Origin: Spirochaetae bacterium HGW-Spirochaetae-3
Lineage (GTDB): Bacteria; Spirochaetota; Spirochaetia; Treponematales; UBA12059
NCBI GenBank assembly: GCA_002839315.1
Contig: PGXV01000006.1
Location: 187,176-251,175 of the forward strand
Reading direction: 5' to 3'
Length of the DNA: 64,000 nt
Within the stretch, counting starts at the first letter, position 1. Each line of letters opens with the position of its first letter. Position numbers and translations under genes: made by a program. This document shows, in pieces, positions 17,508-38,865 of this stretch. Under the pieces are notes generated by a model. The model searched no databases and had not been told where the DNA came from. It was given only the letters and a program-made list of their open reading frames with translations.

Positions 17508-17508
17508 G

Positions 17509-22746: not shown

Positions 22747-23943
22747 TTATCGTACTTCGCGCTTCTGCCCGCGTTCCATCAGCGCCTTGAGCGTTGCCGA
22801 CGGGTCCTTGCGCTTACCGAGCAGGATCATCGCGGCGATGATGTACGGCTTGTAACTGGCTTCCATGTACGTCTCGTCGCGATAGCGGTCGAATACCGTA
22901 GCGGCGACCTCGCCGGCCTTGCAGGAGACGTCGGTGATGTCGGCGGGCAGGCAGTGCATGTACAGGGCCTTGCCGCCGCGGGTCAGCTTCATCTTCTCCT
23001 CGGTGCACTCCCAGTCCTTGAACCTGGCGTTGTTCGCGAGACAGGCCTTCTCGAGTTCCTTGAGTCCGCCCTGGTCGCCAGCGTGCAGGAGCGGCACGCG
23101 CTGCTGCATCACGTCGTACGGGGCCCAGCTCTTCGGGTATACGATGTCGGCGTCCTTGAACGCCTCGTCCATCGAGTTGACGTGCGTGAACGATCCGCCC
23201 GACTCCTTGGCCTGCCTCTTGGATAGCTCGACGACGTCCGGGATAAGGTCGTAACCCTCGGGGTGGGCCAGCGATACGTCCATGCCGAAGCGGCTGGCGA
23301 GGCCGATGATGCCCTGGGGCACCGACAGCGGCTTGCCGTACGACGGGGAATAGGCCCAGGTCATCGCTATCTTCTTGCCCTTGAGCTTGTCCACGCCGCC
23401 GAAGCGGTGGGCGAGGTGGAGGAAGTCGGCCATCGCCTGGGTGGGATGGTCTATGTCGCTCTGGAGGTTGACGACGGTCGGCCTGTCGGGGAGTACTCCG
23501 GATGCGACGCCCTCGTCGAGGGAGCGGGCCACCTCGCGCTGGTACTTGTCGCCCTCGCCCAGGTACATGTCGTCGCGGATGCCGATCGCCTCGGAAAGGA
23601 AGCTGATCATGTTAGCGGTCTCGCGCACCGTCTCGCCGTGGGCGATCTGGCTCTTGCCCTCGTCGAGATCCTGGACGTACAGGCCCAGGAGATCGGCCGC
23701 GCTCGCGTAGGAGAATCGCGTGCGGGTGGAGTTGTCCCTGAAATTCGATACGGCGATGCCGGAGTCCCATATCCTGGGGCTGATGTTGGCCTCGCGCATA
23801 GAACGGAGGATGTCGGCGACGAGGAACGTCGCGTCGAGTTCGTCGCGGCTCTTCTCCCAAGTAAGGAAGAAGTCCTTGTGGAACATGTCGATCTTCTTTT
23901 TCGACAGCTGGTCGATCAGTGCCTTGATTTCATTAACGCCCAT
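22747..23943 (-). CDS. ygeW: Knotted carbamoyltransferase YgeW
   Basis: A 398-residue aspartate/ornithine-carbamoyltransferase paralog of the YgeW group. The carbamoyl-phosphate-binding motif FRDNSTRTRFSYA (about residue 70), DIDHPTQAMADF and YMHCLPADITD are present. YgeW does not use ornithine or aspartate; its true substrate has been uncertain, and it belongs to the anaerobic purine/uric-acid degradation cluster. It is the last gene of the leftward purine operon, 54 bases after xdhD. Length equals the E. coli protein (about 396). No carbamate kinase gene is nearby, although one would be needed to harvest ATP from carbamoyl phosphate. Confidence 0.92.
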   Translation of the reverse strand: MGVNEIKALIDQLSKKKIDMFHKDFFLTWEKSRDELDATFLVADILRSMREANISPRIWDSGIAVSNFRDNSTRTRFSYASAADLLGLYVQDLDEGKSQIAHGETVRETANMISFLSEAIGIRDDMYLGEGDKYQREVARSLDEGVASGVLPDRPTVVNLQSDIDHPTQAMADFLHLAHRFGGVDKLKGKKIAMTWAYSPSYGKPLSVPQGIIGLASRFGMDVSLAHPEGYDLIPDVVELSKRQAKESGGSFTHVNSMDEAFKDADIVYPKSWAPYDVMQQRVPLLHAGDQGGLKELEKACLANNARFKDWECTEEKMKLTRGGKALYMHCLPADITDVSCKAGEVAATVFDRYRDETYMEASYKPYIIAAMILLGKRKDPSATLKALMERGQKREVR

Positions 23944-23997: not shown

Positions 23998-26865
23998 TCA
24001 CAGCTTGCCCATCGCGCGCAGGACGCGCTCGGGGGTAAACGGCCAGACGCGGCACCAGGCGCCGACGGCGTCGTGTATCGCTATCGATATCGCCGGCGCG
24101 GCGCTATTGAGCGATATCTCCGATACGCTCTTGCCGCCGAACGGGCCGACCTCGTCCTCGACAGGTACGAGCTCCACGTGGAAGTCGTCAGGCACCTCGT
24201 ATATCGACGGGATCTTATAATCCGTGAAGCCGAGATTCAAGGGCCTGCCCTGGTCGTCGAACAGCAACTCCTCGTAGAGCGAGTGGCCGATGGCCTTCAT
24301 GACGCCGCCGTATATCTGGCCCATCGCGAGCGCGGGGTTGATCGGCGTGCCGCAGTCCTGGTACGCGTGGAAGCGCCTGAGCCTGACTTCGCCCGTGCGT
24401 ACGTTGACCGCCGCCTCGGTGAAATGCGCTCCGTACGGGAACGCGGCGTGCTCCGTCTTGAAGTTGCCGAAGCCGACGAGGTCGCCGTGGCCCTCGCCCT
24501 GGGTAGCCATGTGCGCCAGCTTGGCGAGGCTTATCTCGCCCCGCTTGCCGCGCACGATGCCGCGCGGTACGAGGTAGAGGTCTGATTCCGGCTCGCCGAG
24601 TATCCCGGACGCTACCTTGATGCACTTTTCGCGCAGGTCCTCGGCCGCCCGTACGGCGGCGTTGCCGGAGAAGTAGGTGCCGGAGCTGGCGTACGCGCCT
24701 TTGTCGAACGGCGTGGTGTCGGTATCGCCGGAGACCACCGTGACGTCGGTCATGTCGAGTTTCATTATCTCGGCCGCGGCCTTGGCGGTCACCGTGTCGA
24801 GGCCCGTACCGAGATCGGCTCCGCCTGAGAGCATCAGTAGCGAACCGTCGGGCAGGAGCCTGAGCTCCGCGTTGGCGGCGTCCAGTCCCGGTAATCCCGA
24901 GCCCTGCTGTATGATCACCGCGCCACGGCCTATCTTCCAGTCAGGGTCGTCGGACTCCGGCTTAGGCTCGCCCCACGCGAACGCCTTGCGTCCGCGAGCC
25001 ACCATCTCGTCGAGCCCGCACGTGCCGAGCGTTACGGCCGCGCCGGGTCGGCCCTCTCCGAGGCTCTTCAGTATCTCGAGCCTGGAGCCTGAGCGGACCA
25101 TGTTCTTCTCTATCAGGTCCAGCTGGTCCATGCCGAGTTCGAAGGCGAGCTCGGCGAGCGTGCCCTGCAGCGCGAACGAGCCCTTGGGCGCGCCGTAACC
25201 CTGATAGGCGCCGGCCGGCGAAAGGTTGGTGTAGTAGGTCTTAACAGAGAAACGGGCGTTGTCGCAGAGGAGGAGCGGCAGGCTCTTCGAGACGGCGTTC
25301 ATCGGCACGGTCAGGCAGTGCTGGCCGTAGGGACCGGTGTCCGCCTCTACCTTCATGTCCATCGCGGTCAGCGTGCCGTCGCGCCTGGCGCCGAGCTTGA
25401 CGGTTATCTCCATGCCGTGCCTGGTGCGGCTCGTCATGAACTCCATCGCGCGGTCGTAGCGGAACAGTACCGGCCTGCGCGTCTTCCACGCCATGTAGCC
25501 GGCTACGTCCTCGAGGACGATGTCCTGCTTTGCGCCGAAGCCGCCGCCGACGCGCTCCTTGATGACGCGTATCTTGTGCTCGGGTAGCCCGACCGCGGCG
25601 GCGACGATGCGGCGTAGGTGCCAGGGGACCTGGGTGGACGCGTGTATCACCAAGCGGTCGGCGTCGACCTTGGCGTATACGACGTGCGGCTCCAACGGCG
25701 TGCATTGTACACGCTTGCCCACGTAGGTTCGTTCTATGACGACGTCCGCTTCCGCGAAGCCCTTGTCCACGTCGCCTATGCCGTCGGCCACGCTGGCGGC
25801 GAGATTGCGGTGCGGGTCTGCGTGAAGGGGGAACTGGTATATGATCGGGTCGTCTCGGCCGTCTCCCTCGGTCGAGCTGCCGGCGGGCGGGTCCCCGACT
25901 ACGTACGAGACGGCGCCGTGGTGTACGATAGGAGCGCCGGGCGCCTTGGCCTCGGCTATGGACAGAACCGGCTTCAGCACCTCGTACTCTACGACGATGG
26001 CTTTGATCGCCGCCTCGGCCTCTTCCGGCGTCTCGGCGAGCACGGCGGCTACGCGGTCTCCGACATGGCGTACCTTGCGCGGGAACATGCGCTGATCATG
26101 GGGGCTCGGCTCGGGGAATCCCTGCCCCGCCGTGGTGTAGACGCGGTCCGGGCAGTTCTCGTGGGTGACGATGTCGACGACGCCTGGCATATCGAGGGCT
26201 TTTGATACGTCGATGCTCTTGATCCACGCGTGCGCGTACGGCGACATGAGCAGCTTCAGGTGGCATGCGTCGGAATCGACGCGGTCCTCGACGAAGGCCT
26301 TCTCTCCCCGGGCGAGGGCCGAGGCGTCGACCTTCTCCCGGTCCTTGCCGACGTGCCGGAGGTCCGGCCGGAATTCGGGGCCGAGCGGTACGACGTACTC
26401 GGGATCGGCCAGGCGCTCAGAGGCTATCCTCGCCGCGTCGTAGAACTGCTCGTAGCCGGTGCATCTGCACAGCGTTCCGGACAGCGCGTCGCGCAGTTCT
26501 TCGTCGCTCGGTTTCGGGCTGCGCGCGAGGAGATCGTGGAGAGCGAGCACGACCGCCGGGGTGCAATAGCCGCACTGGACGCACGACGCGTCGATCAGCG
26601 CGCGCTGTACTATTGAAAGCTTGCGGTCCCTGGAGAAGAAGTCTACGGTCAGCACCGAGGATCCTTCGGCCTGGGGCGCGAGAATCTGGCACGAATTGAC
26701 GAGACGGCCGTCGAGGATGACGGCGCAGAGCCCGCACGAGCCTTCGCCGTCGCAGCCGTCGCGTACGGAGACGATGCCCTTGCGCCGGAGCGCGGCGCGG
26801 AGCGTCTCTCCCGGTGCGCAGTCCCACGAGACGGAGCGCTCGTTCAGCTTGAAATCGACCTTCAT
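23998..26865 (-). CDS. xdhD: XdhD: fused 2Fe-2S / molybdopterin hydroxylase subunit
   Basis: A 955-residue molybdenum hydroxylase, matching E. coli XdhD (956) in length and domain order. An N-terminal plant-type ferredoxin region has Cys38, 44, 47 and 59. A second 2Fe-2S domain has CVQCGYCTP and LCRCTGY. The molybdopterin-binding part has GGGFGAKQD, AYQGYGAPKG and the late GGKSVSEISLNSAAP with the presumed catalytic Glu. It should hydroxylate a purine at the Mo centre and pass electrons to the FAD subunit encoded just upstream (ygfM; start and stop overlap as ATGA). XdhD is suspected of carrying a selenium-labile cofactor. I set the start at 26865; the longer reading frame upstream is antisense to nothing functional and is ygfM sequence in another frame. 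Confidence 0.92.
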   Translation of the reverse strand: MKVDFKLNERSVSWDCAPGETLRAALRRKGIVSVRDGCDGEGSCGLCAVILDGRLVNSCQILAPQAEGSSVLTVDFFSRDRKLSIVQRALIDASCVQCGYCTPAVVLALHDLLARSPKPSDEELRDALSGTLCRCTGYEQFYDAARIASERLADPEYVVPLGPEFRPDLRHVGKDREKVDASALARGEKAFVEDRVDSDACHLKLLMSPYAHAWIKSIDVSKALDMPGVVDIVTHENCPDRVYTTAGQGFPEPSPHDQRMFPRKVRHVGDRVAAVLAETPEEAEAAIKAIVVEYEVLKPVLSIAEAKAPGAPIVHHGAVSYVVGDPPAGSSTEGDGRDDPIIYQFPLHADPHRNLAASVADGIGDVDKGFAEADVVIERTYVGKRVQCTPLEPHVVYAKVDADRLVIHASTQVPWHLRRIVAAAVGLPEHKIRVIKERVGGGFGAKQDIVLEDVAGYMAWKTRRPVLFRYDRAMEFMTSRTRHGMEITVKLGARRDGTLTAMDMKVEADTGPYGQHCLTVPMNAVSKSLPLLLCDNARFSVKTYYTNLSPAGAYQGYGAPKGSFALQGTLAELAFELGMDQLDLIEKNMVRSGSRLEILKSLGEGRPGAAVTLGTCGLDEMVARGRKAFAWGEPKPESDDPDWKIGRGAVIIQQGSGLPGLDAANAELRLLPDGSLLMLSGGADLGTGLDTVTAKAAAEIMKLDMTDVTVVSGDTDTTPFDKGAYASSGTYFSGNAAVRAAEDLREKCIKVASGILGEPESDLYLVPRGIVRGKRGEISLAKLAHMATQGEGHGDLVGFGNFKTEHAAFPYGAHFTEAAVNVRTGEVRLRRFHAYQDCGTPINPALAMGQIYGGVMKAIGHSLYEELLFDDQGRPLNLGFTDYKIPSIYEVPDDFHVELVPVEDEVGPFGGKSVSEISLNSAAPAISIAIHDAVGAWCRVWPFTPERVLRAMGKL

Positions 26866-27680
26866 ATCTGTTCCTCCGCGGCGTGCAGGGCGTCGGCTAC
26901 CAGGGCCGCGCCGCGGAGCCGCTTGTACTCGACGCTGCCGCGTTGGTCGGCCCGCGCCTGCAGGAGCGGCGCGACGGTCTTCTCGATGTCGGCCTTGGTC
27001 GGCAACGGCTTGCCTTCGAACAGCGCCGCGACGTCGGGCCTTAGGGAGGCGCGGGGTCCGAAGCCCCCGATGGCGATCCTGAGTCCGGCGACCTTGCCGC
27101 CTTCTAGCCTGAAGGCGCACGCGGCGGTAGACGTGGCGATATCGCAGGCGGTCCGGCTGGCGCGCAGGCTGGACGCCCGAAGGCCGTCTGCCCGCGGCAC
27201 GATGACCGTCAGCACGAGCCCTCCGGGCGCGGCCAGCCAATCGGCCAGCGCGATCGTCACCGAGGCCTTGCTTCGTTCCTTGTATTCTACGCTCGCCCCG
27301 AGCGCCAACAGAATCGGCGCCAGGCTCGAGCAGGACTTGTTAGCGCCAAGGTTGCCGCCGACGGTCGCGCGATTGCGCGTGTTGCGGTTCGCCATCGACG
27401 TCGCCGCCGCCCTGATGGCGGGCGGCGTCGATTTCGAGTCGACGATTTCCTGGAACGTCGCGCCGGCGCCGAGGCACAGCTCGGCGCCTCGTCCATCGGA
27501 CGCGCCGCGCGTCTCGATCGTTCGGGGCACGGCCCTGCCGATGTCTACGACGCGCTCGGGCTTGTCCCTCGCCTCGAACGCGAGCGACCAGGTGCCGCCC
27601 GCCAAAGCGAGAGCGCCCGGAGCGGCCAGTAGCTCGAGCGCCTCGTCGAGCGATTCGGGCCTGAAATATTCTTTTACCAT
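26862..27680 (-). CDS. ygfM: FAD-binding subunit of a molybdenum hydroxylase (YgfM)
   Basis: A 272-residue protein of the CoxM/XdhB class, carrying FAD between the Fe-S clusters and the electron acceptor. The FAD-binding loops are LALAGGTWSL (about residue 29) and ATVGGNLGANKSCSSL (about residue 108). It begins with MVKEYFRPESLDEALELL, typical of the family. Its gene overlaps xdhD by 4 bases and the 8-oxoguanine deaminase gene by 7, so it is the natural FAD partner for XdhD, which lacks this domain. E. coli has the same ygfM-xdhD pairing. Confidence 0.9.
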   Translation of the reverse strand: MVKEYFRPESLDEALELLAAPGALALAGGTWSLAFEARDKPERVVDIGRAVPRTIETRGASDGRGAELCLGAGATFQEIVDSKSTPPAIRAAATSMANRNTRNRATVGGNLGANKSCSSLAPILLALGASVEYKERSKASVTIALADWLAAPGGLVLTVIVPRADGLRASSLRASRTACDIATSTAACAFRLEGGKVAGLRIAIGGFGPRASLRPDVAALFEGKPLPTKADIEKTVAPLLQARADQRGSVEYKRLRGAALVADALHAAEEQI

Positions 27681-29086
27681 GCGGCTTCTATCCCCGCTTT
27701 CTTAAGGAGACGCTTCGCGCAACGATTTGCCTCGTCGCGTATGCGATCCTCGTCGGCGCCCGTCAGGCGCCCGTTATTGACGACCAGCTTGCCGTTTACG
27801 ATAAGGTGGTCGACGCCGTGGTTATACCCGGAGAAGAGCAGCGCGGCCGCCGGGTCCGATAGCGCGCCCGCGTACTCGAGCTTCTTCACGTCGAACAGCG
27901 CGACGTCCGCGAGCGCGCCTGGTTCCATGGCGCCCGCGTCGTCGTAACCGAGTATCCGCGCGCCGCCGGCCGTCGCGAGCCCCAGGACCTCGCGGGCGGT
28001 GATGCCCGCCGAGCCGTATCGCACGCGCTGCAGTAGCAGCGCCTGGCGGGCCTCGCCGAGCATGTCCGACGCGTCGTTCGACGCGGAGCCGTCTACGGCC
28101 AGGCCGACGCTGACGCCGCGGTCGAGCATCTCGCGGACGCGGCATATGCCGGAACCCAGCCGCATGTTCGACGACGGGCAGTGGGCGACGCCGGTGCCCG
28201 TGCGGGCAAGGAAATCGAGTTCCTCGTCGTTGAAGTGGATGCCGTGCGCGTACCATACGTCCGGGCCCGTGAACCCGCAGTCCTCCATGACCCTGAGCGG
28301 GCGGCGGCCGTACATCTGCACGCAGAAGTCGTCCTCGTCGGCCGTCTCGGCCAGGTGGGTATGCAGTCGGGCGCCGTACTTGCGGGCCAGGTCGGCGGCG
28401 TCGCGCATCGACCTCTCGGAAACCGAGAACGGCGAGCACGGGGCCAGCGCCAGCTTGCGCATGGAGTCGGGCGCCGCGTCGTGGTACTTACGAAGCGCTT
28501 CCTCGCTCTGGGCCAGTATCTCGTCCTCGTCCTGCACGACGCTGTCCGGCGGCAGGCCGCCGTCCTTCTTGGATCGGGACATAGAGCCGCGGGTCGGCGC
28601 GAACCGGAGGCCTATCTCCGAGGCCGCCTTGAACTGGATGCCCGGCAGGTCGCCCGTGAACGAGCGGGGATACAGGTAATGGTGATCCGTCGACAGCGTG
28701 CAGCCGGTCTTGGCCAGCTCGGCCATTGCCAGCATGCTCGACCAGTAGACCGCCTCCTCGTCGACGCCCTTCCATACCTCGTACAGGTAGACGAGCCAGT
28801 CGAAGAGCTTCGCGTCCTGGACGGCGGGCACGTTGCGCGTCAGGGTCTGGTAGAAATGGTGGTGGGTATTGACGAGTCCGGGCAGCACGACATGGCGGCT
28901 CGCGTCGATGACGGCGCAGGCACCTTCGGCGCCAGACGGCGCCGAGAGGCCCTTGCCTATCTTCGATATACGGTTGCCGTCTATGAGGACGTCGACCCCG
29001 GACAAGTCATCCCCGACGGAGCCGGCGTCGGCGCCGGCTCCGTAACGGGGTCGGACCACCCTGAAGCAGTCCTTGAGTAGTATCAC
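27674..29086 (-). CDS. 8-oxoguanine deaminase-like amidohydrolase
   Basis: A 470-residue metal-dependent hydrolase of the amidohydrolase superfamily. The metal site is seen as GLVNTHHHFYQTLTR, HTHLAETADED and VDGSASNDASD. The stretches FDWLVYLYEVWKGVDEEAVY, STDHHYLYPR and RGSMSRSKKDGGLPPDSVV are characteristic of the group that deaminates 8-oxoguanine to urate (related to AtzB-like proteins) and differ from SsnA, which is encoded separately at 33060. It starts with GTG overlapping the stop of the upstream PLP enzyme gene (GTGA). In this operon it would feed oxidised guanine into the urate branch. Guanine or another aminopurine is the alternative substrate. Confidence 0.83.
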   Translation of the reverse strand: MILLKDCFRVVRPRYGAGADAGSVGDDLSGVDVLIDGNRISKIGKGLSAPSGAEGACAVIDASRHVVLPGLVNTHHHFYQTLTRNVPAVQDAKLFDWLVYLYEVWKGVDEEAVYWSSMLAMAELAKTGCTLSTDHHYLYPRSFTGDLPGIQFKAASEIGLRFAPTRGSMSRSKKDGGLPPDSVVQDEDEILAQSEEALRKYHDAAPDSMRKLALAPCSPFSVSERSMRDAADLARKYGARLHTHLAETADEDDFCVQMYGRRPLRVMEDCGFTGPDVWYAHGIHFNDEELDFLARTGTGVAHCPSSNMRLGSGICRVREMLDRGVSVGLAVDGSASNDASDMLGEARQALLLQRVRYGSAGITAREVLGLATAGGARILGYDDAGAMEPGALADVALFDVKKLEYAGALSDPAAALLFSGYNHGVDHLIVNGKLVVNNGRLTGADEDRIRDEANRCAKRLLKKAGIEAAW

Positions 29087-30540
29087 CTGACAACCTCTGC
29101 GTTGAACTCGTTGATCATGACGTCCAGGTCGGCGGCCTGGGCGCGGAGCCCGCCCCAGTAATTGCGGTGGTCGTCCCACTGGGCGCGGAGCTCGGTTACG
29201 TCCTTGCCCAGCTGCTCTATCCAGAGGAAGTACTTGAGCTGGTGCACGCGGCGCTTGTCCACCTGGGACATCTCGAGGACGTGATCCACGGACTGGCCCA
29301 TGAGCCTATCGTAGTCCCTGTCCGCCTGGCGCTGATCGTACGCGCCGCGCTCGGCGTTCATCTCGGTGATACGGCTGCCGTACATGGCCATGGAGTCGGT
29401 GAACATGGTGAATACCACGTCGGTCTCGTCCATCTCGTAGTACTTGGCGAACTTGATGGCGCCGAGCAAGTTGCCGACGCCGGAGATACCCATCAGGTTC
29501 AGCTTGGCGATATCGTCGGCGGAGACGCCGTTCTCGGCGAGCAGCTTATGGCCGGCGGGCTCGTTGAAGAGCCGGATGAGGCGGATCGGTAGCTCGTCGT
29601 CGATGCCGACGGCCATGTCGGTGTCGCGGAGGTTGTGGATCCACGGGATATGCTTGTCGCCGATGCCCTCGATGCGATGGTCCCCGAAGCCGTTCTCGAG
29701 GATGGTCGGGCACTGCAGCGCCTCCGCGACGGCTACCTTGGCGCCGTTGAAGTGGTCGCGGATATAGCTTCCCGCGCCCATGGTGCCGGCCGAGCCGGAG
29801 GACAGGACGACGCCGCCCATGTGGTCCCCGGGCCTCGCTATCTTCTTGAAGACCTCGGCCATGGCGGGCCCGGTGACGTTATAGTGCCAGAGGTGGTTGG
29901 GCAGCTGGTCGAACTGGTTGAAGATGACGCATTCCGGCCGGTTCTTCTCAATGTCGGTGCAGGTGTCGAATATCTCCTTGACGTTGGACTCGCAGCCGGG
30001 CGTGGCGATGACTTCCTCGGCCATGGTCTTGAGCCACTCGAAGCGCTCCTTGCTCATGCCGGCGGGAAGGATGGCCACCGACGGGCAGGACATCAGGCGG
30101 GAGATATAGGCGCCGCCGCGGCAGTAGTTGCCGGTGGACGGCCAGACCGCCTTCTTGGTGGTGGGGTCGAAGCGGCCCGTGACGAGCTCGGGCAGCAGGC
30201 AGGACAGCGCCGCCCCGACCTTGTGCGCGCCGGTAGGGAACCACTTACCGACGAGGCCGACGATGCGGGCCTTGGTGCCGGTGATGGAGCGGGGGATCTC
30301 TACGTAGTTGACGTCGCCGAAGGTGCCTCCTTGCTCCTTAGGCTCGTTGTGCCAGTTGACGCGGAACAGGTTGCGGCTATGCACGTCCCATAGCCCGATG
30401 TCCTTGAGCTCGTCCTTGACGGACTGGGGAATCTTGGACGGATCACGCATCTGCTCGTAGGTAGGGAGGATTATTCCCTTCTCCTTGCAGCGCTGGATGT
30501 TCTTCTTGCGCGCCTTCTCGTCTATCCGTAAATCGATCAT
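29083..30540 (-). CDS. Fold-type II PLP-dependent lyase of unassigned specificity
   Basis: A 485-residue enzyme of the tryptophan-synthase-beta/threonine-synthase fold. TGAHKVGAALSCL (about residue 97) holds the presumed PLP lysine, STGNYCRGGAYISRL the phosphate/substrate loop, and SSGSAGTMGAG the glycine-rich phosphate cup. The N-terminus (IDEKARKKNIQRCKEKG) and a long C-terminal helical part are not found in YgeX (about 398 residues), so this is not a simple ortholog of the diaminopropionate lyase of the E. coli cluster. AAAGGAG lies 6 bases before the ATG at 30540. It may carry out the C-N cleavage step of purine-ring breakdown. The substrate is not readable from sequence. Confidence 0.75.
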   Translation of the reverse strand: MIDLRIDEKARKKNIQRCKEKGIILPTYEQMRDPSKIPQSVKDELKDIGLWDVHSRNLFRVNWHNEPKEQGGTFGDVNYVEIPRSITGTKARIVGLVGKWFPTGAHKVGAALSCLLPELVTGRFDPTTKKAVWPSTGNYCRGGAYISRLMSCPSVAILPAGMSKERFEWLKTMAEEVIATPGCESNVKEIFDTCTDIEKNRPECVIFNQFDQLPNHLWHYNVTGPAMAEVFKKIARPGDHMGGVVLSSGSAGTMGAGSYIRDHFNGAKVAVAEALQCPTILENGFGDHRIEGIGDKHIPWIHNLRDTDMAVGIDDELPIRLIRLFNEPAGHKLLAENGVSADDIAKLNLMGISGVGNLLGAIKFAKYYEMDETDVVFTMFTDSMAMYGSRITEMNAERGAYDQRQADRDYDRLMGQSVDHVLEMSQVDKRRVHQLKYFLWIEQLGKDVTELRAQWDDHRNYWGGLRAQAADLDVMINEFNAEVVR

Positions 30541-30579
30541 GCCTTGCTCCTTTAGCTGGTATACGAATTTAACACATAG

Positions 30580-30625
30580 GCACGGAGAAGAGGATGAACC
30601 ACGCTGCGTCCCATCTTCCCCGTGC
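30580..30625. repeat. Imperfect inverted repeat in the only sizeable gap of the purine operon
   Basis: GCACGGAGAAGA near 30580-30591 pairs imperfectly with TCTTCCCCGTGC at 30614-30625, giving a hairpin with a loop of about 20 bases. It fills the gap between the two PLP-enzyme genes. The sequence style (TAACACATAGGCACGGAGAAG) resembles dispersed intergenic repeats of the CACGGAG type in many bacterial genomes, so it may be a small mobile repeat, an mRNA-processing site or an attenuator. No T-run follows on the operon strand. Confidence 0.5.
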
Positions 30626-30637
30626 TTGGAATCCTCA

Positions 30638-31846
30638 TTATAGTCCAAGGCCCTTCATCGCGCCGGCTACGTCCTTGAGGCCCGAGCCGGTCAGCATGAC
30701 CACTACGGTCTCGTCGGCTCGTATGCCGGCCTTCGCCTTGATGAACCCGGCCCACGCGGCGCTCGAACTGGGCTCCGCGAAGAGCCCCGCCTTGGCGGCC
30801 AGCTCCTTCTGCGCGTCCAGTATCTCGGCGTCGGTCACGACGACCGCCTTGCCGCCGTACTTCCTCAGCTTCGACAGCGCGTGGGCGCCGTTGCGCGGTA
30901 CGTCGACTGCGATCGAGTCGGCTATCGTGTCGCTCGGTACCGGCGCTCCGAAACCGCCCGCGGCCAGCGCCCTTGCGATGGCGCTCGAGCCTTCGGCCTG
31001 GCAGGCCCAGATCGTCGGTACCCTCTGGATGCGGCCGAGCCTGACCAGGTCCTCGAAGCCCTTGTAGACGCCGGCGATGATGACGCCGTCGCCTACCGGT
31101 ACGAAGACATGATCGGGCGCGACGAAGTCCTTCTTAGGGAGTTCGGCGAGGTGGCCCGCCCGTCTGGCCTCGTGCTCCCGCGCGCGCGCGAGGTCGCGGA
31201 CCATCTCGAAGCTGACGGTCTTCTTCCCCTCGATGGTCAGCGGGTTGTACGCGGTATTGCGCGACAGCACGCCGGTCTCCCCGCTATACGCGAGCGACTG
31301 GTCGAAGGCGACGTCGTATGTCCCGTCCACCTCCCGCAGCTCGGCGCCGTACTGCAGCACCTGCACCCGCTTGGCGACCGGAGCCTTCCTGGGAAGGAAT
31401 ACCGTTATCTTGAGGCCCGCGGCCGCGCCGATACCGGACATGCTGGACGCGGCGTTGCCGGTGCTCGCGAGCGCGATCTCCGTGATCCCGCGTTCCTTCG
31501 CGAAGCCCGCGACCAGGTACGAGGCGCGGTCCTTGAACGAGCCCGTGGGCTCGCAGGTGTCGTCCTTGAGGAAGAGTCGAGGGAATCCCGTCTCGTCGCG
31601 AAGCCGGGCGGGTTCCCACAGCGGCGTATCGCCTACCGGCAGGGGGGGCAGGAACTCCTTGGCTACCGGTAGCGGTATATCGTCCGGACCGCCGTCGAAT
31701 CTCCCCTCCCAGGCGCACTCGAGCACGCCGGCGAGCGGCCGGTCGGCCTCCTGCTTCGCCGAGCAGGCGCCGCAGAGGTATCGTCCCGGCTCTATGCCGT
31801 ATTCGGCCCCGCACTCGGGGCATTTATAGAACCACCTCATGATCAC
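30638..31846 (-). CDS. Threonine-synthase-like PLP enzyme with N-terminal zinc ribbon
   Basis: A 402-residue fold-type II PLP enzyme. The N-terminus has a zinc-ribbon pair of cysteines (YKCPECGAEYG and YLCGACSAK). DDTCEPTGSFKDRASYLVAG (about residue 100) contains the PLP lysine, followed by STGNAASSMSGIGAAAG and a glycine-rich region near VPVGDGVIIAGVYKG. By sequence it is nearest to threonine synthase, but its place inside a purine-degradation operon without other threonine genes suggests a different beta-elimination substrate such as a diaminopropionate-type product. It starts at a GTG overlapping the ygeY stop, or at an ATG 6 bases on (31840). True threonine synthase activity remains possible. 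Confidence 0.8.
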   Translation of the reverse strand: MIMRWFYKCPECGAEYGIEPGRYLCGACSAKQEADRPLAGVLECAWEGRFDGGPDDIPLPVAKEFLPPLPVGDTPLWEPARLRDETGFPRLFLKDDTCEPTGSFKDRASYLVAGFAKERGITEIALASTGNAASSMSGIGAAAGLKITVFLPRKAPVAKRVQVLQYGAELREVDGTYDVAFDQSLAYSGETGVLSRNTAYNPLTIEGKKTVSFEMVRDLARAREHEARRAGHLAELPKKDFVAPDHVFVPVGDGVIIAGVYKGFEDLVRLGRIQRVPTIWACQAEGSSAIARALAAGGFGAPVPSDTIADSIAVDVPRNGAHALSKLRKYGGKAVVVTDAEILDAQKELAAKAGLFAEPSSSAAWAGFIKAKAGIRADETVVVMLTGSGLKDVAGAMKGLGL

Positions 31847-33063
31847 AGTTTGGCGTCTTCAAGGGCGTAGGGGAGGGCGGCGTAGAAGGCGGCGGCCTTC
31901 CACAGGTCGTCCACGCGCGTTATCTCGTTGGGCGCGTGGGCCTGGTTCTCGTCTCCCGGTCCGAATCCTATGCTCGGGATGCCGTGCCTACCGGCGACCG
32001 CGACCGCGTTGGTCGAGAAGGTCCACTTGTCCACGACGGGAGCCGCGGAGAAGACGGCCTCGTGCGCGGCGACTCCGGCCTTTACGAAGGGGTGGTCGGC
32101 GGGGAATTTCCAGGTCGGGAAGTAGAGCTCCTGTCGGTAGTCCTTGCCTGTCCAGCTGGGGATCGCGTACTCGGGCATCGTCACCTCTACGGCGTCGACG
32201 CCGGCGGCGAGGATGGCGTCCTTGACCTGCTGGATGGCCATGTCCTTGGTCTCGCCCCAGGTAAGGCGGCGGTCCAGGTACAGCATCGCCTCGTCGGGTA
32301 CGGCGCACTGCGAGGGGCCATGGACCTTCATCTGCGAGACTACGACCGTGCCCTTGCCGAGGAACCCGTCGTCGTCCGGTTTCAGGGACGCGTTGAGCTT
32401 CTCCATAGCCAGAGCGGCTCGGGATGCCTTGTACGCGGCGGAGACGCCGCGCTCGGGAGCGGAGCCGTGGCAGGAGACGCCCTTCATGTGCACTTCCATC
32501 TCCATGCGCCCGCGGTGGCCGCGGTACAGGCGGAGCGACGTGGGCTCGGTGGACACGAAGAGATCGGGCACGAACTTCTCTTCCTCTATAAGGTATTTCC
32601 AGCAGATGCCGTCGCAGTCTTCCTCGATGATCGTGAAGGCGAACCATACCGAGTACTCGCCCGAGTAGTTCATCTCCTTGAGGATGCGCCCCGCGGTGAT
32701 CATCGCGGCCGCGCCGCCGGTCTGGTCCGAGGTGCCGCGGCCGTGCACGAGGCCGTTCTCGATATCGCCGGAGAACGGGTCCTTCTTCCACTGCGAGCGG
32801 TCGCCGATCCCGACGGTGTCGATGTGCGCGTCGATGACGAGCTTCTTGGGGCCGTCGCCGACCCGGGCGAGCAGATTGCCGAGGCCGTCGATGCGTACCT
32901 CGTCGAAGCCGGCCTTCTCGCACATGTCCTTGAGGAAGAGTATGCGCTCCTTCTCCTTGTTGCTCATCGCCGGGACCTTGATGATGCTAGAGAGGTTCTT
33001 CGCGGTCCAGTCCTTGTACGATTCGGCCTTAGCCCTGATTTCCTTGCCGTTCTGCACGCTCAT
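31843..33063 (-). CDS. ygeY: M20-type hydrolase YgeY
   Basis: A 406-residue metallohydrolase of the M20/ArgE-DapE type, the size of E. coli YgeY (403). Metal-binding landmarks are VIDAHIDTVGIGD, GRGTSDQTGGAA and IIEEDCDG; the dimerisation domain lies between about 185 and 290. In the purine cluster it is proposed to hydrolyse a ring-opened, acylated intermediate; the exact substrate is not proven. GGAGG lies 8 bases before the ATG at 33063. It overlaps ssnA by 4 bases and the threonine-synthase-like gene by 3-4. Confidence 0.88.
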   Translation of the reverse strand: MSVQNGKEIRAKAESYKDWTAKNLSSIIKVPAMSNKEKERILFLKDMCEKAGFDEVRIDGLGNLLARVGDGPKKLVIDAHIDTVGIGDRSQWKKDPFSGDIENGLVHGRGTSDQTGGAAAMITAGRILKEMNYSGEYSVWFAFTIIEEDCDGICWKYLIEEEKFVPDLFVSTEPTSLRLYRGHRGRMEMEVHMKGVSCHGSAPERGVSAAYKASRAALAMEKLNASLKPDDDGFLGKGTVVVSQMKVHGPSQCAVPDEAMLYLDRRLTWGETKDMAIQQVKDAILAAGVDAVEVTMPEYAIPSWTGKDYRQELYFPTWKFPADHPFVKAGVAAHEAVFSAAPVVDKWTFSTNAVAVAGRHGIPSIGFGPGDENQAHAPNEITRVDDLWKAAAFYAALPYALEDAKL

Positions 33064-34382
33064 TTCCTTTCCTCCATCCGTTGCCATAACCTACGCGTCT
33101 CCGACCTACCGCGGGCGGCGATGGCCCCGGCGTCGAAGATCGGTTTCCTGTCCTTGACGATATACCTGCCCGCGACCATGGTCGAGCTGACCATGCGCGA
33201 GCCCATGCCGAACGCGACGTGGCCGGCGACGTTGCCGCTCTCGAGCGGGACCGGCGGGTCGTAGTCCCAGAACGCCAGGTCCGCCTCGAAGCCGGCCTCC
33301 ACGCGTCCGAAACGCTTGCCCGGGTAATAGCGCTCGAGGAGACGGTTGCCGTTCTGTAGCATTTCCAGGTACGCGTCCATCCATCGCGAGCCGCCCGCGT
33401 CCTTGTGCTTGAAGAACGCGAAGAGCGCCTCCTCGAGCATGTCCGAGCCTATGCCGTCGGTGCCGAGCACCGGGTTCCTGTACTGCCCTATCTTGTCGTT
33501 GTAGCCCACGCAGTTGTTCATATTGGAGCGAGCGTTGTGGGCGATGAACGAGTCGCGCTCGTTTACCAGCTCTACTTCGCTCGGCGTCAGGAAGAGCCCG
33601 TGGCCGAGTATGGTCTTGGGCCCAAGGAGCCCCGCGTCGTCGAGGCGCACGCAGATGTCCTTGTCGAAGCGATAGCGGGAGTCGACCGCGTCGAACTTGT
33701 CCTCGGCGACGTGGATGTGCAGGCCGCGTCCCGTCGACGAGCAGGCCGAGGCGAGCGCCTCGAGCGTCTCGTCGCAGACGGTGAAGGGCGCGTGGGCGCC
33801 TATCGCCGCCTCGACGGTCGGGTCTCCTCCGGCCTTGCGCACGGCGTCGGTCTTCTTGGCGAAGCGCTCGTTCTCGCGAACGCCCGCGCGGGCGCCTTCC
33901 ATGCCGTTGCGGTCGGTCGTCTCGTAGCACAGGACGCCGCGTATGCCCACCGTCTCGAATCCCTCGGCGAGCGCGTCGAGGGAGCCGTCGATGTACTCGG
34001 GACTCGCGTGATGGTCGACCACCGACGTCACGCCGAGCATCGCCGCGTCGGCGGCGCCCGCGAGGCCGCTCGCCCTGACGATGCCCTCGTCGAGGGCGCG
34101 GTCGAGGAGCCACCACATGTTCTTCAGCTGCTGGGCGAAGTCCTTGCTCGGCTCTATCGCGACCATCAGCCCTCGGGCGAGAGCCGAGTAGAAATGGTTA
34201 TGCGAGCATACGAGGCCCGGGCTGACGTAGCCCCCGGGCGACTGGCGATCGGCTCTGGGATACTTCGACGCGAGGCCCCTGCCCACCTCGACTATCCTGG
34301 CGCCTTCTATGGCTACGTCGGTAGGCTCGGAGACCGAGCCTGGGTAAAAATGGAGAACGCGAACGTTCTCGAGGATCATCAT
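33060..34382 (-). CDS. ssnA: Amidohydrolase SsnA
   Basis: A 440-residue cyclic amidohydrolase closely resembling E. coli SsnA (442). Diagnostic stretches are SPGLVCSHNHFYSALARGL, TSVVDHHASPEYIDGSLDAL, AHAPFTVCDETLEAL, HNARSNMNNCVGYN and LGTDGIGSDMLEEALFAFF. It is a metal-dependent aminohydrolase-type enzyme of the uric-acid/purine degradation cluster, with the exact reaction unassigned. GGAGGG precedes the ATG, which overlaps the ygfK stop (ATGA). A second methionine follows immediately, so the start could be 3 bases later. Confidence 0.93.
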   Translation of the reverse strand: MMILENVRVLHFYPGSVSEPTDVAIEGARIVEVGRGLASKYPRADRQSPGGYVSPGLVCSHNHFYSALARGLMVAIEPSKDFAQQLKNMWWLLDRALDEGIVRASGLAGAADAAMLGVTSVVDHHASPEYIDGSLDALAEGFETVGIRGVLCYETTDRNGMEGARAGVRENERFAKKTDAVRKAGGDPTVEAAIGAHAPFTVCDETLEALASACSSTGRGLHIHVAEDKFDAVDSRYRFDKDICVRLDDAGLLGPKTILGHGLFLTPSEVELVNERDSFIAHNARSNMNNCVGYNDKIGQYRNPVLGTDGIGSDMLEEALFAFFKHKDAGGSRWMDAYLEMLQNGNRLLERYYPGKRFGRVEAGFEADLAFWDYDPPVPLESGNVAGHVAFGMGSRMVSSTMVAGRYIVKDRKPIFDAGAIAARGRSETRRLWQRMEERK

Positions 34383-37300
34383 GCCTTCCCTCCAGCTATG
34401 AGATACGAGTGAGAGTCGAGTACGGTCTTGGCTATCGCGGGCATCGGCGAATCGGCGGCCCGCTTCGTCCATTCGGCGTACGGTCGCGTCGTGACCGCGG
34501 ACTTCTCGCCCGGCTCGGCGCGCATGACGAGCGTCGGCGAGGCGCTGTCGCCTACGAACGCGAAGCCCGCGTTGGAGCTCTCGCGGAGGGCGGCCTCGCC
34601 CGAGAACAGCGTCGGCTTGCCGGAATAGGGCTCGCCGTCGTAGGGGCAGAAGAAGCCGCAGTTGCCGCACTCGTTGCAGAGGTCGTCGACGTGCACGATC
34701 TGTATCGCCTGCTTGAGCGCGCCGCCCGGGGCGACGGGTAACGCGAAGTTGGCCCGGTTGGGGCATACCTCGACGCACCGGAGGCAGGCCGAGCCGCAGG
34801 ACAGGCAACGCTCGGCCTCGCGGGCGACGAAGCCCGGATCCGTTACCGGCAGGCTCGGTAGCGTTTCGCCGCGCCGCGACAGCGCGTCGTGATCGGGCGC
34901 CGAAGGCTCGAGCCTTTCTACGCGCGGCTCGACGCCGGCGGCGCGGAGGATGGCGTAGGCGGCCAGGCGCCCGTCGGCCTCGCCCGCGATGATACTGGCC
35001 GGTCCGCGCCTGGCGTCGCCCGCGGCGTAGACGCCGGGAACGCTCGTGGCCATCGTCGACTCGTCTACGACGGGACGGCCGTTCTTGCCTACCTCCGCCC
35101 CGAGCGATTCGAACAGCGCGCGGTCCGGGCTCTCGCCCACCGCCGCTATCACGAGGTCGCAGGCGACGTCTCGGACCCTGTCGGAAGCGACCGGAGCGCG
35201 CCTCCCGGACGCGTCGGGCTCGCCGAGCGACATCTCCCTGACCCGCAGCACCGGTAGCGATCCGCCCGAGCCCGGCGCCATCCGCTCGGGTAGCGACAGT
35301 TCGGTGTATTCTACGCCGTCAACGAGCGCCGCCTCGAATTCCTCGCGGTCGGCCGGCATCTCCAAAAGCGACCTGCGGTACAGGATACGGACCTTGGGCT
35401 TGCCGGCGAGCCTCGCCGCGACGCGTGCGGCGTCCATCGCGGTATTGCCGCCGCCGGTCACGACTATCGCCTTGTACCCGTCGAACTCGCCCTTGCGCTC
35501 ATGCGCCGCGGCCAGGAATTCGAGCGCGTCGACGACGCGTATGCCTGATCCTTCGAGCGGCAGCTCGCGCGGGATAGGGGCCCCGGTCGCCACGACGACC
35601 GCGGAATAGCCTTCGGCCTTCAGCGCGGCGGCGTCGACGGAACCGGAATGGCCGAACCTGAAATCCGCTCCGAGCGCCTTGATCCTGTCGATGTCGGCCG
35701 TGATATCCTCTGTGGAGATGCGGAAGCCGGGTATGACGTTGGCGGGGACGCCTCCGGGGCCGGCCGCCTTGTCGAATACGGTTACCGGGTAGCCTTCCAG
35801 CGCCAGGTAGTGGGCGCAGGATAGTCCCGCGGGGCCGGCGCCGAACACGGCTGCCTTGCCCTTGCCCGCCAGGGACGGAGCCTTAACGGCCGGAATCGTA
35901 GCGGAACGGGCACAGGCCAGTTTCATCGAGCGTATCTCGACGGAGCCCTCGTAGTCGACGCGCGAACAGGCGTACATGCACTGGTGGTCGCACAGGACGC
36001 CGGTGATATGCGGCAGCGGATTGTCCGCCAGCACGATAGACAGCGCCTTCTTGGCGTCTCCGGCGGCGAGCGCCTTCATATAAGCGGGCGGCTTCTGGCC
36101 GGCGGGGCAGGCCTCGACGCAGGGGGCGGCGAAGCAGTCGCTCAGGGGCAGGCTCTTCTTGATGCGCGCCTCGCCCTTCTTGTAGTCGCCGCGGTAGGCC
36201 GGGTCCTCGAGCGCCGCGGCCGCGAGCCGGGCGAGCCGATCGGCGTCCGGCCTCGCGGGTACGCCCGCATCCAAGGCGCGAACGGCCTCGCGGGCCATCG
36301 GCTCCAGCCTGAGGTATCCGCCCGGCTTGAGTATGTCGGTGGCGACGGTCAGCGGGCCGAGCCCGGCGGCGAGGCAGTCGAACGCGTTATGCGCGCTCGC
36401 GCCGCCGCAGTACGAGAACGGCAATGGCTCGGGAAGGGCGGCCGCGAGCCTGGCCGCCAGGCGGGTGGTTATCGGGAACAGCGATCGGCCGGACATGTAG
36501 CGCTCGCCGCCCGGCATCCGCGCGCCGTCGTTGACGTTCGCGAGGGTGTTGGACAGCTTGACGCCGAATCGCGCGCCCTTGGCCTTCGACTTGTCCCGAA
36601 GCGACGCGATAAGGTTCAGCGCGGCGTCGAACTGCAGGTCGTGCTCGAAGGTCGGGCGCTTGACGAGTATGCGTTGCCACCCGGTGGTGTCGAGAATACG
36701 CCTGACTTCGTCGTAGCCGAGCAGGGTAGGGTTGAGTTTTACGTAGGTATCGAAACCTTTTTCTTCTATTAAATAGGCGCCGATCCGCTCAATCTCGGCG
36801 GGCGGACAACCGTGCATCGTAGACAGCGTTACCGAGTGCACCGGGGCGGTCGGCATGGCCCTGACGGCTTCGCGAGCGCGAGCGGCTCCGGCCGCTCCGA
36901 AGGCGGCCTGGAACGAAGGCGCGTCGACGGCGGCCTTCGCCTCGGCGAGGGCCTGCTCCCATATCGGGGTGCCGGCCGGCGAGCGCATGCCCTCGATGAA
37001 GGCGTCGACGCGCGCGCCCTTGATACCGTCGAGGGTATAGCCGACGGACATGTTGAACATCAGCGCGCCGGGACGCTCGCACAGCGCGGCGCGGAGGATA
37101 TGGATCGCTATCCACGCGCGCAGGTATTCGGCGCGCGCCTCCTCGAGCAGCAGCTCGGTGGACCATTCCACGTTGTGCCCCTCGTCCAGTGCGTCGATGC
37201 AGGGCTTCTCTATATCGAGCCGGTCGTTCTCCTGAACGGTCTTGAGCTCGAATACCCTGGCTCCGGCGAGCCACGCGGCGACTATATTAGGCGCTATCTG

Positions 37301-37489
37301 GGTATGCGGTCCAGCCGCCGGTCCTATGGGCAGGCCGATGACGGCGCCGTTCACGTCGAATCCCGGCGATCGCGACTCCCTGCCGATGACCCGCCGCGTC
37401 AATGCTCCGGGAATATCGTAGGCCCCGTCCCTCGCCGTCCATTCGCCGATTATCCGCCCCAATAGCTCGCTCATCGGCAATGACTTCAT
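34379..37489 (-). CDS. ygfK: YgfK: multi-domain Fe-S flavoprotein (putative selenate reductase subunit)
   Basis: A 1036-residue oxidoreductase, matching E. coli YgfK (1032). The N-terminal half is a dihydropyrimidine/dihydroorotate-dehydrogenase-like barrel (IGPAAGPHTQIAPNIVAAWL near residue 50). A GltD-like module follows, with cysteines in CFAAPCVEACPAG, an FAD motif (GAGPAGLSCAHYLALEGYPV) and an NAD(P) motif (GGGNTAMDAARVA). It ends with ferredoxin-type clusters (CLSCGSACLRCVEVCPN and CNECGNCGFFCPYDGEPYSG). It probably reduces a purine-derived intermediate using NAD(P)H. I chose the ATG at 37489, 8 bases after hyuA; an ATG at 37513 would overlap hyuA without a ribosome site. The name 'selenate reductase' is historical. 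Confidence 0.92.
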   Translation of the reverse strand: MKSLPMSELLGRIIGEWTARDGAYDIPGALTRRVIGRESRSPGFDVNGAVIGLPIGPAAGPHTQIAPNIVAAWLAGARVFELKTVQENDRLDIEKPCIDALDEGHNVEWSTELLLEEARAEYLRAWIAIHILRAALCERPGALMFNMSVGYTLDGIKGARVDAFIEGMRSPAGTPIWEQALAEAKAAVDAPSFQAAFGAAGAARAREAVRAMPTAPVHSVTLSTMHGCPPAEIERIGAYLIEEKGFDTYVKLNPTLLGYDEVRRILDTTGWQRILVKRPTFEHDLQFDAALNLIASLRDKSKAKGARFGVKLSNTLANVNDGARMPGGERYMSGRSLFPITTRLAARLAAALPEPLPFSYCGGASAHNAFDCLAAGLGPLTVATDILKPGGYLRLEPMAREAVRALDAGVPARPDADRLARLAAAALEDPAYRGDYKKGEARIKKSLPLSDCFAAPCVEACPAGQKPPAYMKALAAGDAKKALSIVLADNPLPHITGVLCDHQCMYACSRVDYEGSVEIRSMKLACARSATIPAVKAPSLAGKGKAAVFGAGPAGLSCAHYLALEGYPVTVFDKAAGPGGVPANVIPGFRISTEDITADIDRIKALGADFRFGHSGSVDAAALKAEGYSAVVVATGAPIPRELPLEGSGIRVVDALEFLAAAHERKGEFDGYKAIVVTGGGNTAMDAARVAARLAGKPKVRILYRRSLLEMPADREEFEAALVDGVEYTELSLPERMAPGSGGSLPVLRVREMSLGEPDASGRRAPVASDRVRDVACDLVIAAVGESPDRALFESLGAEVGKNGRPVVDESTMATSVPGVYAAGDARRGPASIIAGEADGRLAAYAILRAAGVEPRVERLEPSAPDHDALSRRGETLPSLPVTDPGFVAREAERCLSCGSACLRCVEVCPNRANFALPVAPGGALKQAIQIVHVDDLCNECGNCGFFCPYDGEPYSGKPTLFSGEAALRESSNAGFAFVGDSASPTLVMRAEPGEKSAVTTRPYAEWTKRAADSPMPAIAKTVLDSHSYLIAGGKA

Positions 37490-37497
37490 GATCTTGC

Positions 37498-38865
37498 TCA
37501 CCGGTACCCCCATCGTAGATGTTTTCCGTATCCCGCCTCGGCGATTATGCCCGAGGCTGCGTTCCACACGGTCCGTCCCCTGACCATGGTTTCGCGGATT
37601 CGGCCCGCGAGACGCATGCCCTCGAACGGCGTTATCGTTCCTTTGCTTAGTAATTCCGATCCGCGCACCTCGTAGACGCCGCTCGGGTCGACCAGCACCA
37701 GGTCGGCGTCCATGCCGACGGCGATGGCGCCCTTGCGGCCCGAGAGCCCGAAGCGCGCCGCGGCTCCTCCGCTCGTAGCCCGCAGGAAGGACCGGAGGCT
37801 CAAGCGACCGGCCCTATAGCCTTCCGAGTACAGGTACGGGAATAGCGTCCCCGTCCCCGGTATGCCGCCGTAATCGGTCCATACCGAGCCGGTCCGCTTC
37901 TCTGACTCGGGCGCGGGCGCGTGATCGCTCGCTACGTATACTATCGCGCCCGACTCGAGCAGGCGCCAGAGCCTCGCGGATTGTTCCCTCGATTTAACCG
38001 GCGGCGCGGTCTTCAGCGACGATCCCTTGTCCGCGAAGTCCTCGCGGCCGAATGCGAGGTAGTGCGGGCAGGTCTCGCAGGTAGCGCCGGCCGCGGCTAC
38101 GGCCTCGGCTGCGTCGGCGGTACCGACATGGACGACGTGAAGGGCGCCTTCGCGGCCTTTCGCCAGGGCGATAGCCGAGGCGACCGCGACGGTCTCGGCG
38201 GACTCGGGCCGCGAATCGACGTAATCGTCCCACGACGGAGCGCGACCGGCCGCGATGGAGCGGGCCTTCATCGCCGCGGTCGCCGGTAGGACGACGCCTG
38301 GATCCTCCGCGTGCAGGAGCAGGGGCCGGCCGAGCCCGGCCGCCTTGGCCACGGCCCCACCGAACCCGTAATGGTCGACCGCGGTGAACGTATCCATGCC
38401 GGACACGAAGTAGCACTTGAATCCGACGACGTCCGGCGCCAGCGCCTCCATGTCGGAGGCCAGCGCCTCCTCTATGCGATGCCCCGAGACGCCTCCGTAT
38501 AGCGCGTAGTCCACGACGCCGCGGCCGCCCATCGCCGCGAGCTTCTCGCGGAGGTTGGCCGCGGTGGTCACCGGGGGCAGGCTGGTACAGGGCATGTCTA
38601 TGACGGTGGTCACGCCGCCGCGCGCGGCCGCCATCGTGCCGTGCAGGAAGTCCTCGCGGTGCGTGAAGCCGGGTTCGTCGAAATGGACGTGAGGATCGAT
38701 GGCTCCGGGGAACACCTCGAGGCCGGACGCGTCGAATACGTCCTCGCCGGCGGTCGGCTCGATGGAGGCGGCTATCCCGACGATGGTCTCCCCGTCGATT
38801 CGTATATCGCGGCGCTCGAGAGCGTCGGCTCCGGGCAGGGCGCACAGGCCGTTCTTCAGTATCAT
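37498..38865 (-). CDS. hyuA: Cyclic amidohydrolase (HyuA/dihydropyrimidinase-allantoinase type)
   Basis: A 455-residue binuclear metal hydrolase. It has the HxH pair in GAIDPHVHFDEPGFTHRE (about residue 58), a bridging lysine in VGFKCYFVSGMD (about residue 150), further metal ligands in LLHAEDPG and HVVHVGTADA, and a late aspartate in VASDHAPAPESEK. It should open a hydantoin- or allantoin-like ring. E. coli has a phenylhydantoinase gene at the corresponding place. The gene overlaps the upstream molybdenum-enzyme gene by 4 bases. Which ring it opens (allantoin, hydantoin or a dihydropyrimidine) cannot be settled from sequence. Confidence 0.87.
   Translation of the reverse strand: MILKNGLCALPGADALERRDIRIDGETIVGIAASIEPTAGEDVFDASGLEVFPGAIDPHVHFDEPGFTHREDFLHGTMAAARGGVTTVIDMPCTSLPPVTTAANLREKLAAMGGRGVVDYALYGGVSGHRIEEALASDMEALAPDVVGFKCYFVSGMDTFTAVDHYGFGGAVAKAAGLGRPLLLHAEDPGVVLPATAAMKARSIAAGRAPSWDDYVDSRPESAETVAVASAIALAKGREGALHVVHVGTADAAEAVAAAGATCETCPHYLAFGREDFADKGSSLKTAPPVKSREQSARLWRLLESGAIVYVASDHAPAPESEKRTGSVWTDYGGIPGTGTLFPYLYSEGYRAGRLSLRSFLRATSGGAAARFGLSGRKGAIAVGMDADLVLVDPSGVYEVRGSELLSKGTITPFEGMRLAGRIRETMVRGRTVWNAASGIIAEAGYGKHLRWGYR

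Follow-up and report, generated by a model that had tools for sequence, protein, structure and literature searches.

A threonine-synthase-like and a CysK-like protein as the probable replacement of YgeX in a spirochaete reductive urate operon

In this study, we analysed a window of 64,000 nucleotides from Spirochaetae bacterium HGW-Spirochaetae-3 (contig PGXV01000006.1, positions 187,176 to 251,175), in which an operon for reductive urate degradation includes two neighbouring genes for fold-type II pyridoxal phosphate (PLP) proteins. One of them is similar to threonine synthase (ThrC) and is called here ThrCl, and the other, of the CysK/CBS type, is called PLP485. Judging from computed gene content, partnership across genomes, near-exclusion of YgeX, predicted folds and residue changes, the two are probably a non-orthologous replacement of YgeX in this pathway, and their standing as a conserved module is fairly well supported. 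Within the pair, ThrCl looks like the direct counterpart of YgeX, and PLP485 like an added partner.

The reductive urate pathway, which bears on gout and on purine turnover in the gut, was worked out only in 2025. The steps reported in vitro lead from urate through yanthine, ureidomethyl-hydantoin and diureidopropionate to diaminopropionate (Dap) (Li et al., 2025; PMC12507026). In E. coli the pathway ends with YgeX, which acts on both isomers of Dap and splits it to pyruvate and ammonia (PMC12507026). Because the pair occurs in many bacterial phyla, a second ending of this pathway seems to exist beside the published one; no description of the pair was found in the literature searched. It should be considered that a survey of pathway variants assigned YgeX wherever a PF00291 protein occurred near SsnA (PMC12507026), a criterion that also covers ThrCl and PLP485. 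If the pair performs the YgeX step, many environmental bacteria use other enzymes to finish the pathway, and a testable function is gained for two families labelled threonine synthase and cysteine synthase in databases. The pair also bears on the stereochemistry of the intermediates, which a commentary describes, together with the order of ureido cleavage, as still open (PMC12990295).

Distribution of the pair and of YgeX

The search with the YgeX model (TIGR03528) gave no matches in the whole genome, even at an E value of 1e-3, the genome being 98% complete in 18 contigs. A first-pass annotation of this DNA had noted the absence of ygeX at the locus, which thus holds for the entire genome, and had described a PLP protein of 485 residues adjacent to a threonine-synthase-like zinc-ribbon protein within the operon; both open reading frames (ORFs) were found where it had placed them. 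It had counted a ygeX gene elsewhere in the genome, together with ordinary threonine synthase activity of ThrCl, as evidence against a replacement. The first half of this fails, and a separate ThrC (L087) reaches 323 bits with TIGR00260. Its statement that the E. coli-type cluster ends with ygeX had to be corrected, as in E. coli this gene lies between ygeW and ygeY. Pfam PALP (PF00291; cut-off 35 bits) is matched by ThrCl with 224 bits and by PLP485 with 54 bits, and neither protein matches TIGR03528. There are eight PALP-family places in the genome, the pair included, and the other six correspond to two CysK proteins, both over their cut-off, TrpB, an E. coli-type ThrC, a second ThrC-like protein and a protein similar to CuyA/D-cysteine desulfhydrase.

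The loci of 80 PLP485 relatives from GTDB genomes were read, and YgeX was found near PLP485 in none of them. ThrCl was present in all 49 other whole genomes with PLP485 that were tested (412-647 bits, the next PALP protein reaching at most 349), even where it is far from PLP485, as in Anaerolineae, and YgeX above its family cut-off was present in none of the 49 (best match 225 bits). An even draw of 198 Spirochaetota genomes gave 14 with PLP485, 14 with ThrCl and 12 with both (Fisher p 1.5e-15), with YgeX in 26; the entire operon is conserved in the Spirochaetota relatives. Of 198 genomes from the class to which an actinobacterial carrier belongs, 29 have PLP485, and only one of these 29 (G300) has YgeX above 400 bits. 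ThrCl is located immediately upstream of PLP485 in each of the 20 actinobacterial loci fetched and directly upstream in all 11 betaproteobacterial loci. One actinobacterial metagenome-assembled genome (MAG; L075/L138) has the two genes joined in frame over 915 codons, possibly by a sequencing error. Gene fusion as a general proof was discarded, the other frames of 700-930 codons representing different frames or having stops between the genes, and no YgeY-ThrCl fusions were found.

ThrCl and YgeX nearly exclude each other in spirochaetes with YgeW. Among the 29 genomes with YgeW over its cut-off, 22 have YgeX (at least 300 bits) and 7 have ThrCl (Fisher p 1e-4, kinship not corrected), the single genome with both being a MAG with 6% contamination. 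Since 18 of the 22 YgeX genomes belong to one genus, the number of independent events is small. The same exclusion across the phylum, when not conditioned on YgeW, was set aside as uninformative, with an expected overlap of about 1.8 genomes and one seen. A candidate for ThrCl without PLP485 (G018) was also rejected, given that, judged against G030, PLP485 would lie at about the point where the contig breaks off.

Folds, active sites and relationships

ThrCl has an N-terminal zinc ribbon (C7, C10, C23 and C26), as have some ThrC, and K103 as the PLP lysine. Its AlphaFold model (pLDDT 94) has threonine synthases as top structural matches (2c2b, Z 44.5; 2d1f, Z 40.3), serine and aspartate racemases also being among the matches, and its nearest sequence match is 2zsj (E 2e-43). 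Although ThrC is thus nearest in both fold and sequence, ThrCl of the window is below every NCBI ThrC cut-off (TIGR00260, 139 bits for a cut-off of 167; PRK08197, 181 for 303) and differs at two positions conserved in ThrC. In all the family members examined, STGN is followed by Ala, while true ThrC has Thr, and the Arg of the NPYR motif is replaced by Thr, Met, Leu or similar; the references for this comparison, 2zsj, 6cgq and five ThrC from other genomes, all have Thr and Arg. In the Thermus ThrC complex, these two positions bind the phosphate of O-phosphohomoserine.

The AlphaFold model of PLP485 (pLDDT 93) has the CysK-type fold. Its best structural matches are beta-cyanoalanine synthase (3vc3, Z 35.9) and O-acetylserine sulfhydrylase (2q3d, Z 34.7), and Z ranged between 33 and 36 across about 305 residues in the comparison with CysK, beta-cyanoalanine synthase and cystathionine beta-synthase (CBS). 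The residue alignment gives K107 as the PLP lysine, and the carboxylate loop (PSTGN for PTSGN), the Gln-Phe and GT loops and the GIG..P motif are retained. The active-site frame of CysK and CBS is therefore present, but identity to them is about 20%, GAHKVG occupies the place of SxKDR, and the scores are far below the curated cut-offs (cysK, 74 bits for 351; CBS, 52 bits for 510). Particular to PLP485 are the invariant Arg141 with Cys140, and conserved N-terminal and C-terminal extensions, the latter of about 75 residues, which are common to all relatives (70 sequences, 71% mean column identity). A sister subfamily (44-48% identity; L157, 8869-10422, and L159, 8985-10472) has a different ThrC-like partner adjoining it in both loci, L159 having carbamoyltransferases and YqeA as well. 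As a pointer to function this actinobacterial subfamily was discarded, the contexts of L157, L158 and L160-L162 being uninformative.

ThrCl occupies the same slot as YgeX beside YgeY and YgeW, is also of fold-type II and aligns with it end to end by profile (99%), the alignment covering the whole catalytic region and matching the ThrCl loop SRNTAYNP with the similar VQDTAWEG of YgeX. The differences are that ThrCl has the zinc ribbon, that two proteins stand where YgeX is one, and that the tree separates them. ThrCl forms a clade of its own (support 100/98) outside that of true ThrC (98/99), YgeX another (100/100) and PLP485 a further one (98/88, or 100/100 with the sister subfamily included), the deeper joins being unsure owing to long branches. 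YgeX was not among the structural matches listed, which says nothing against a shared fold. Both fold types also serve one pathway step in the case of the cysteate synthases CapA1 (CysK-like) and CapA2 (ThrC-like), and both appear in the structure match lists (9k2p, Z 32.4; 9k3c, Z 39.7). CapA1 and CapA2 are presumably alternatives in different organisms, whereas ThrCl and PLP485 co-occur.

Proposed reactions and competing explanations

We propose that YgeW and YgeY would strip both carbamoyl groups from 2,3-diureidopropionate to give 2,3-diaminopropionate. ThrCl, in which the two phosphohomoserine-site positions are lost, would most likely make PLP-aminoacrylate from Dap, releasing the beta-amino group as YgeX does, and PLP485 would act on the same compound or intermediate. 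Jointly they would cover what YgeX does alone on L- and D-Dap, with pyruvate (directly or via serine) and ammonia as end products. Dap as the substrate, this chemistry and the share of each enzyme are what we infer; the labour could be divided as one enzyme per enantiomer, as racemase and lyase, or as a route via serine. A wider proposal, that Dap breakdown by a ThrC-fold and a CysK-fold enzyme, in sequence or in a complex and possibly via L-serine or by switching isomers, is a widespread second ending of urate degradation, is put forward tentatively, as a serious candidate that falls short of being probable.

The genes that accompany the pair vary. Decarbamoylation would depend on YgeW and YgeY in spirochaetes and Halanaerobium, while in Actinomycetota (L163-L165) the pair is found with two carbamoyltransferases and the carbamate kinase YqeA, and in betaproteobacteria (L005) with enzymes of the allantoate-amidohydrolase/carbamoylase family and nitrilase-family carbamoylase-like enzymes. 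As the carbamoyl-removing enzymes differ and the pair persists, Dap would be the common product.

Several observations weigh against the replacement of YgeX by the pair. The exclusion is not absolute, with YgeX-like proteins also in G074 and G300, and genus g24 (G008 and G021; L100, L101 and L102) has PLP485 and YgeX without ThrCl; its YgeX-like protein is divergent (36-38% to that of E. coli) and keeps Asp120 and Asp189. PLP485 is accompanied by molybdenum-hydroxylase maturation genes in Neomarinimicrobiota and relatives, and stands alone in Anaerolineae. The NCBI ThrC model accepts the actinobacterial and Anaerolineae relatives of ThrCl. Regarding the active site, Lys77 and Asp120 of YgeX have been described as potential catalytic residues (PMC4000059). 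Lys77, Asp120 (the Asp preceding Gly-Asn) and Asp189 were invariant in eight YgeX proteins. In the profile alignment, Asp120 and Asp189 correspond to Thr and Asn in ThrCl, and the residue before Gly-Asn is Thr in PLP485 as well, so that neither protein has the YgeX aspartate before Gly-Asn, though the PLP lysine is present in both. The suggestion of the first-pass annotation that the pair may replace YgeX is well sustained by the cross-phylum pairing and the nearly constant absence of YgeX, and has to be modified in one respect: genus g24 makes ThrCl and YgeX look interchangeable and PLP485 look like an added partner. The other option that it raised, a two-step variant with another end product, would be compatible with the sequences.

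The strongest competing explanation is that one enzyme deaminates L-Dap and the other deaminates or racemises D-Dap, argued from the fact that both proteins lack the aspartate with which YgeX handles the second isomer. The Thr at the Asp120 position and the racemases among the ThrCl matches are consistent with it; nevertheless, the closest folds to PLP485 are L-specific synthases, and a genus with YgeX and PLP485 needs no second enzyme if YgeX there takes both isomers. We regard this split as possible, with the balance leaning against it.

A route through L-serine, in which one enzyme would swap the beta-amino group of Dap for water and the serine would then be used or deaminated, appears unlikely. 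Nucleophile addition to reaction intermediates is known from enzymes of the CBS and ThrC types, PLP485 shares the active-site frame of CysK and CBS, and an SdaA-like (L-serine ammonia-lyase) gene follows PLP485 in L005, L010 and L015 (435 bits in L005, cut-off 345). However, neither the window nor the other lineages examined have an SdaA gene next to the pair, and aminoacrylate would yield pyruvate without serine.

Marginally less likely again is that PLP485 stands outside the Dap step and acts as a source of sulfur or selenium for the molybdenum cofactor in xanthine-dehydrogenase-type enzymes, with ThrCl alone replacing YgeX. Its CysK-like fold, the XdhC, NTPase and DUF364-like neighbours in the loci of Neomarinimicrobiota, Acidobacteriota and WOR-3, and the lack of ThrCl in genus g24 would agree with such a role. 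Nonetheless, in the betaproteobacterial operons the pair is accompanied by genes for carbamoylases and transporters, with no xanthine dehydrogenase nearby, and the constant adjacency in the actinobacterial loci and the in-frame fusion tie PLP485 to ThrCl. Finally, the two could be housekeeping enzymes, ThrCl for threonine and PLP485 for cysteine synthesis, whose position in the operon is fortuitous. This fits their folds, their best sequence matches and the ThrCl relatives that pass the ThrC model, but it is very improbable, as the genome has its own ThrC and two CysK, the invariant Ala after STGN and the constant loss of the NPYR Arg set ThrCl apart, both proteins score far below the curated cut-offs, and the pair is linked to urate genes in many phyla.

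Operon organisation and related loci

The operon is on the minus strand and extends between about 44.9 and 22.7 kb of the window, according to the ORFs and NCBI family models (Table 1). YgfK, SsnA, YgeY, YgeW and the GuaD-like deaminase all exceeded their family cut-offs in the scan of the window, and the first four, accompanied by xanthine-dehydrogenase subunits and an enzyme of the hydantoinase type, identify a reductive urate cluster. The genes of ThrCl and PLP485 sit between those of YgeY and the GuaD-like protein with a high level of compaction: the ATG of ThrCl is 2 nt past the YgeY stop, 97 nt separate ThrCl from PLP485, and the 3' end of PLP485 overlaps the GuaD-like gene by 7 nt.

Table 1. 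Genes of the operon, with positions in the window.
Feature	Positions	Strand	Start codon, score or basis
YgeW, carbamoyltransferase of the pathway	22747..23943	minus	TIGR03316, 671 bits (cut-off 500)
Second xanthine-dehydrogenase-type pair (FAD and large subunit)	23998..27680	minus	ORF translations; kept beside ThrCl/PLP485 in related loci
8-oxoguanine/guanine deaminase-type (GuaD-like) aminohydrolase	27674..29089	minus	NF006055, 608 bits (cut-off 532)
PLP485, fold-type II PLP protein, CysK/CBS type, 485 aa	29083..30540	minus	ATG 30540
ThrCl, fold-type II PLP protein, 400 aa	30638..31840	minus	ATG 31840; alternative GTG 31846 (402 aa)
YgeY, ureido-group hydrolase of the pathway	31843..33087	minus	TIGR03526, 482.6 bits (cut-off 321.5)
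SsnA aminohydrolase	33060..34409	minus	TIGR03314, 496.5 bits (cut-off 455.5)
YgfK (yanthine reductase)	34379..37510	minus	TIGR03315, 1027 bits (cut-off 835)
Hydantoinase-type amidohydrolase, closer to the AllB model than to E. coli HyuA	37498..38865	minus	TIGR03178, 352 bits (slightly below cut-off 358)
Xanthine-dehydrogenase-type large subunit and Fe-S/FAD subunit (two ORFs)	38862..42610	minus	ORF translations; gene order shared with homologues in related clusters

Reading the window's ORFs by eye, with no search aimed at this enzyme, showed no recognisable carbamate kinase. Genes similar to ArgG and ArgH are located at 16197-18921 of the window, on the plus strand and on the YgeW side of the cluster, and likewise in L019.

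Related loci provided further observations. In L159 and L163-L165, one of the two carbamoyltransferases scores as aspartate carbamoyltransferase, carbamate kinase is present and YgeY was not recognised; both ureido groups might be conserved there as carbamoyl phosphate. The betaproteobacterial operon of L004, L005, L010 and L015 (about 4000-12800 in L005) contains a TRAP-type transporter, allantoate-amidohydrolase-like and nitrilase-family carbamoylase-like genes, ThrCl and PLP485, and has the appearance of a pathway degrading a carbamoylated diamino acid. In the Anaerolineae locus L113 (13391-17969), ThrCl and xanthine-dehydrogenase-like genes adjoin an ABC transporter, nucleoside-importer-like by eye.
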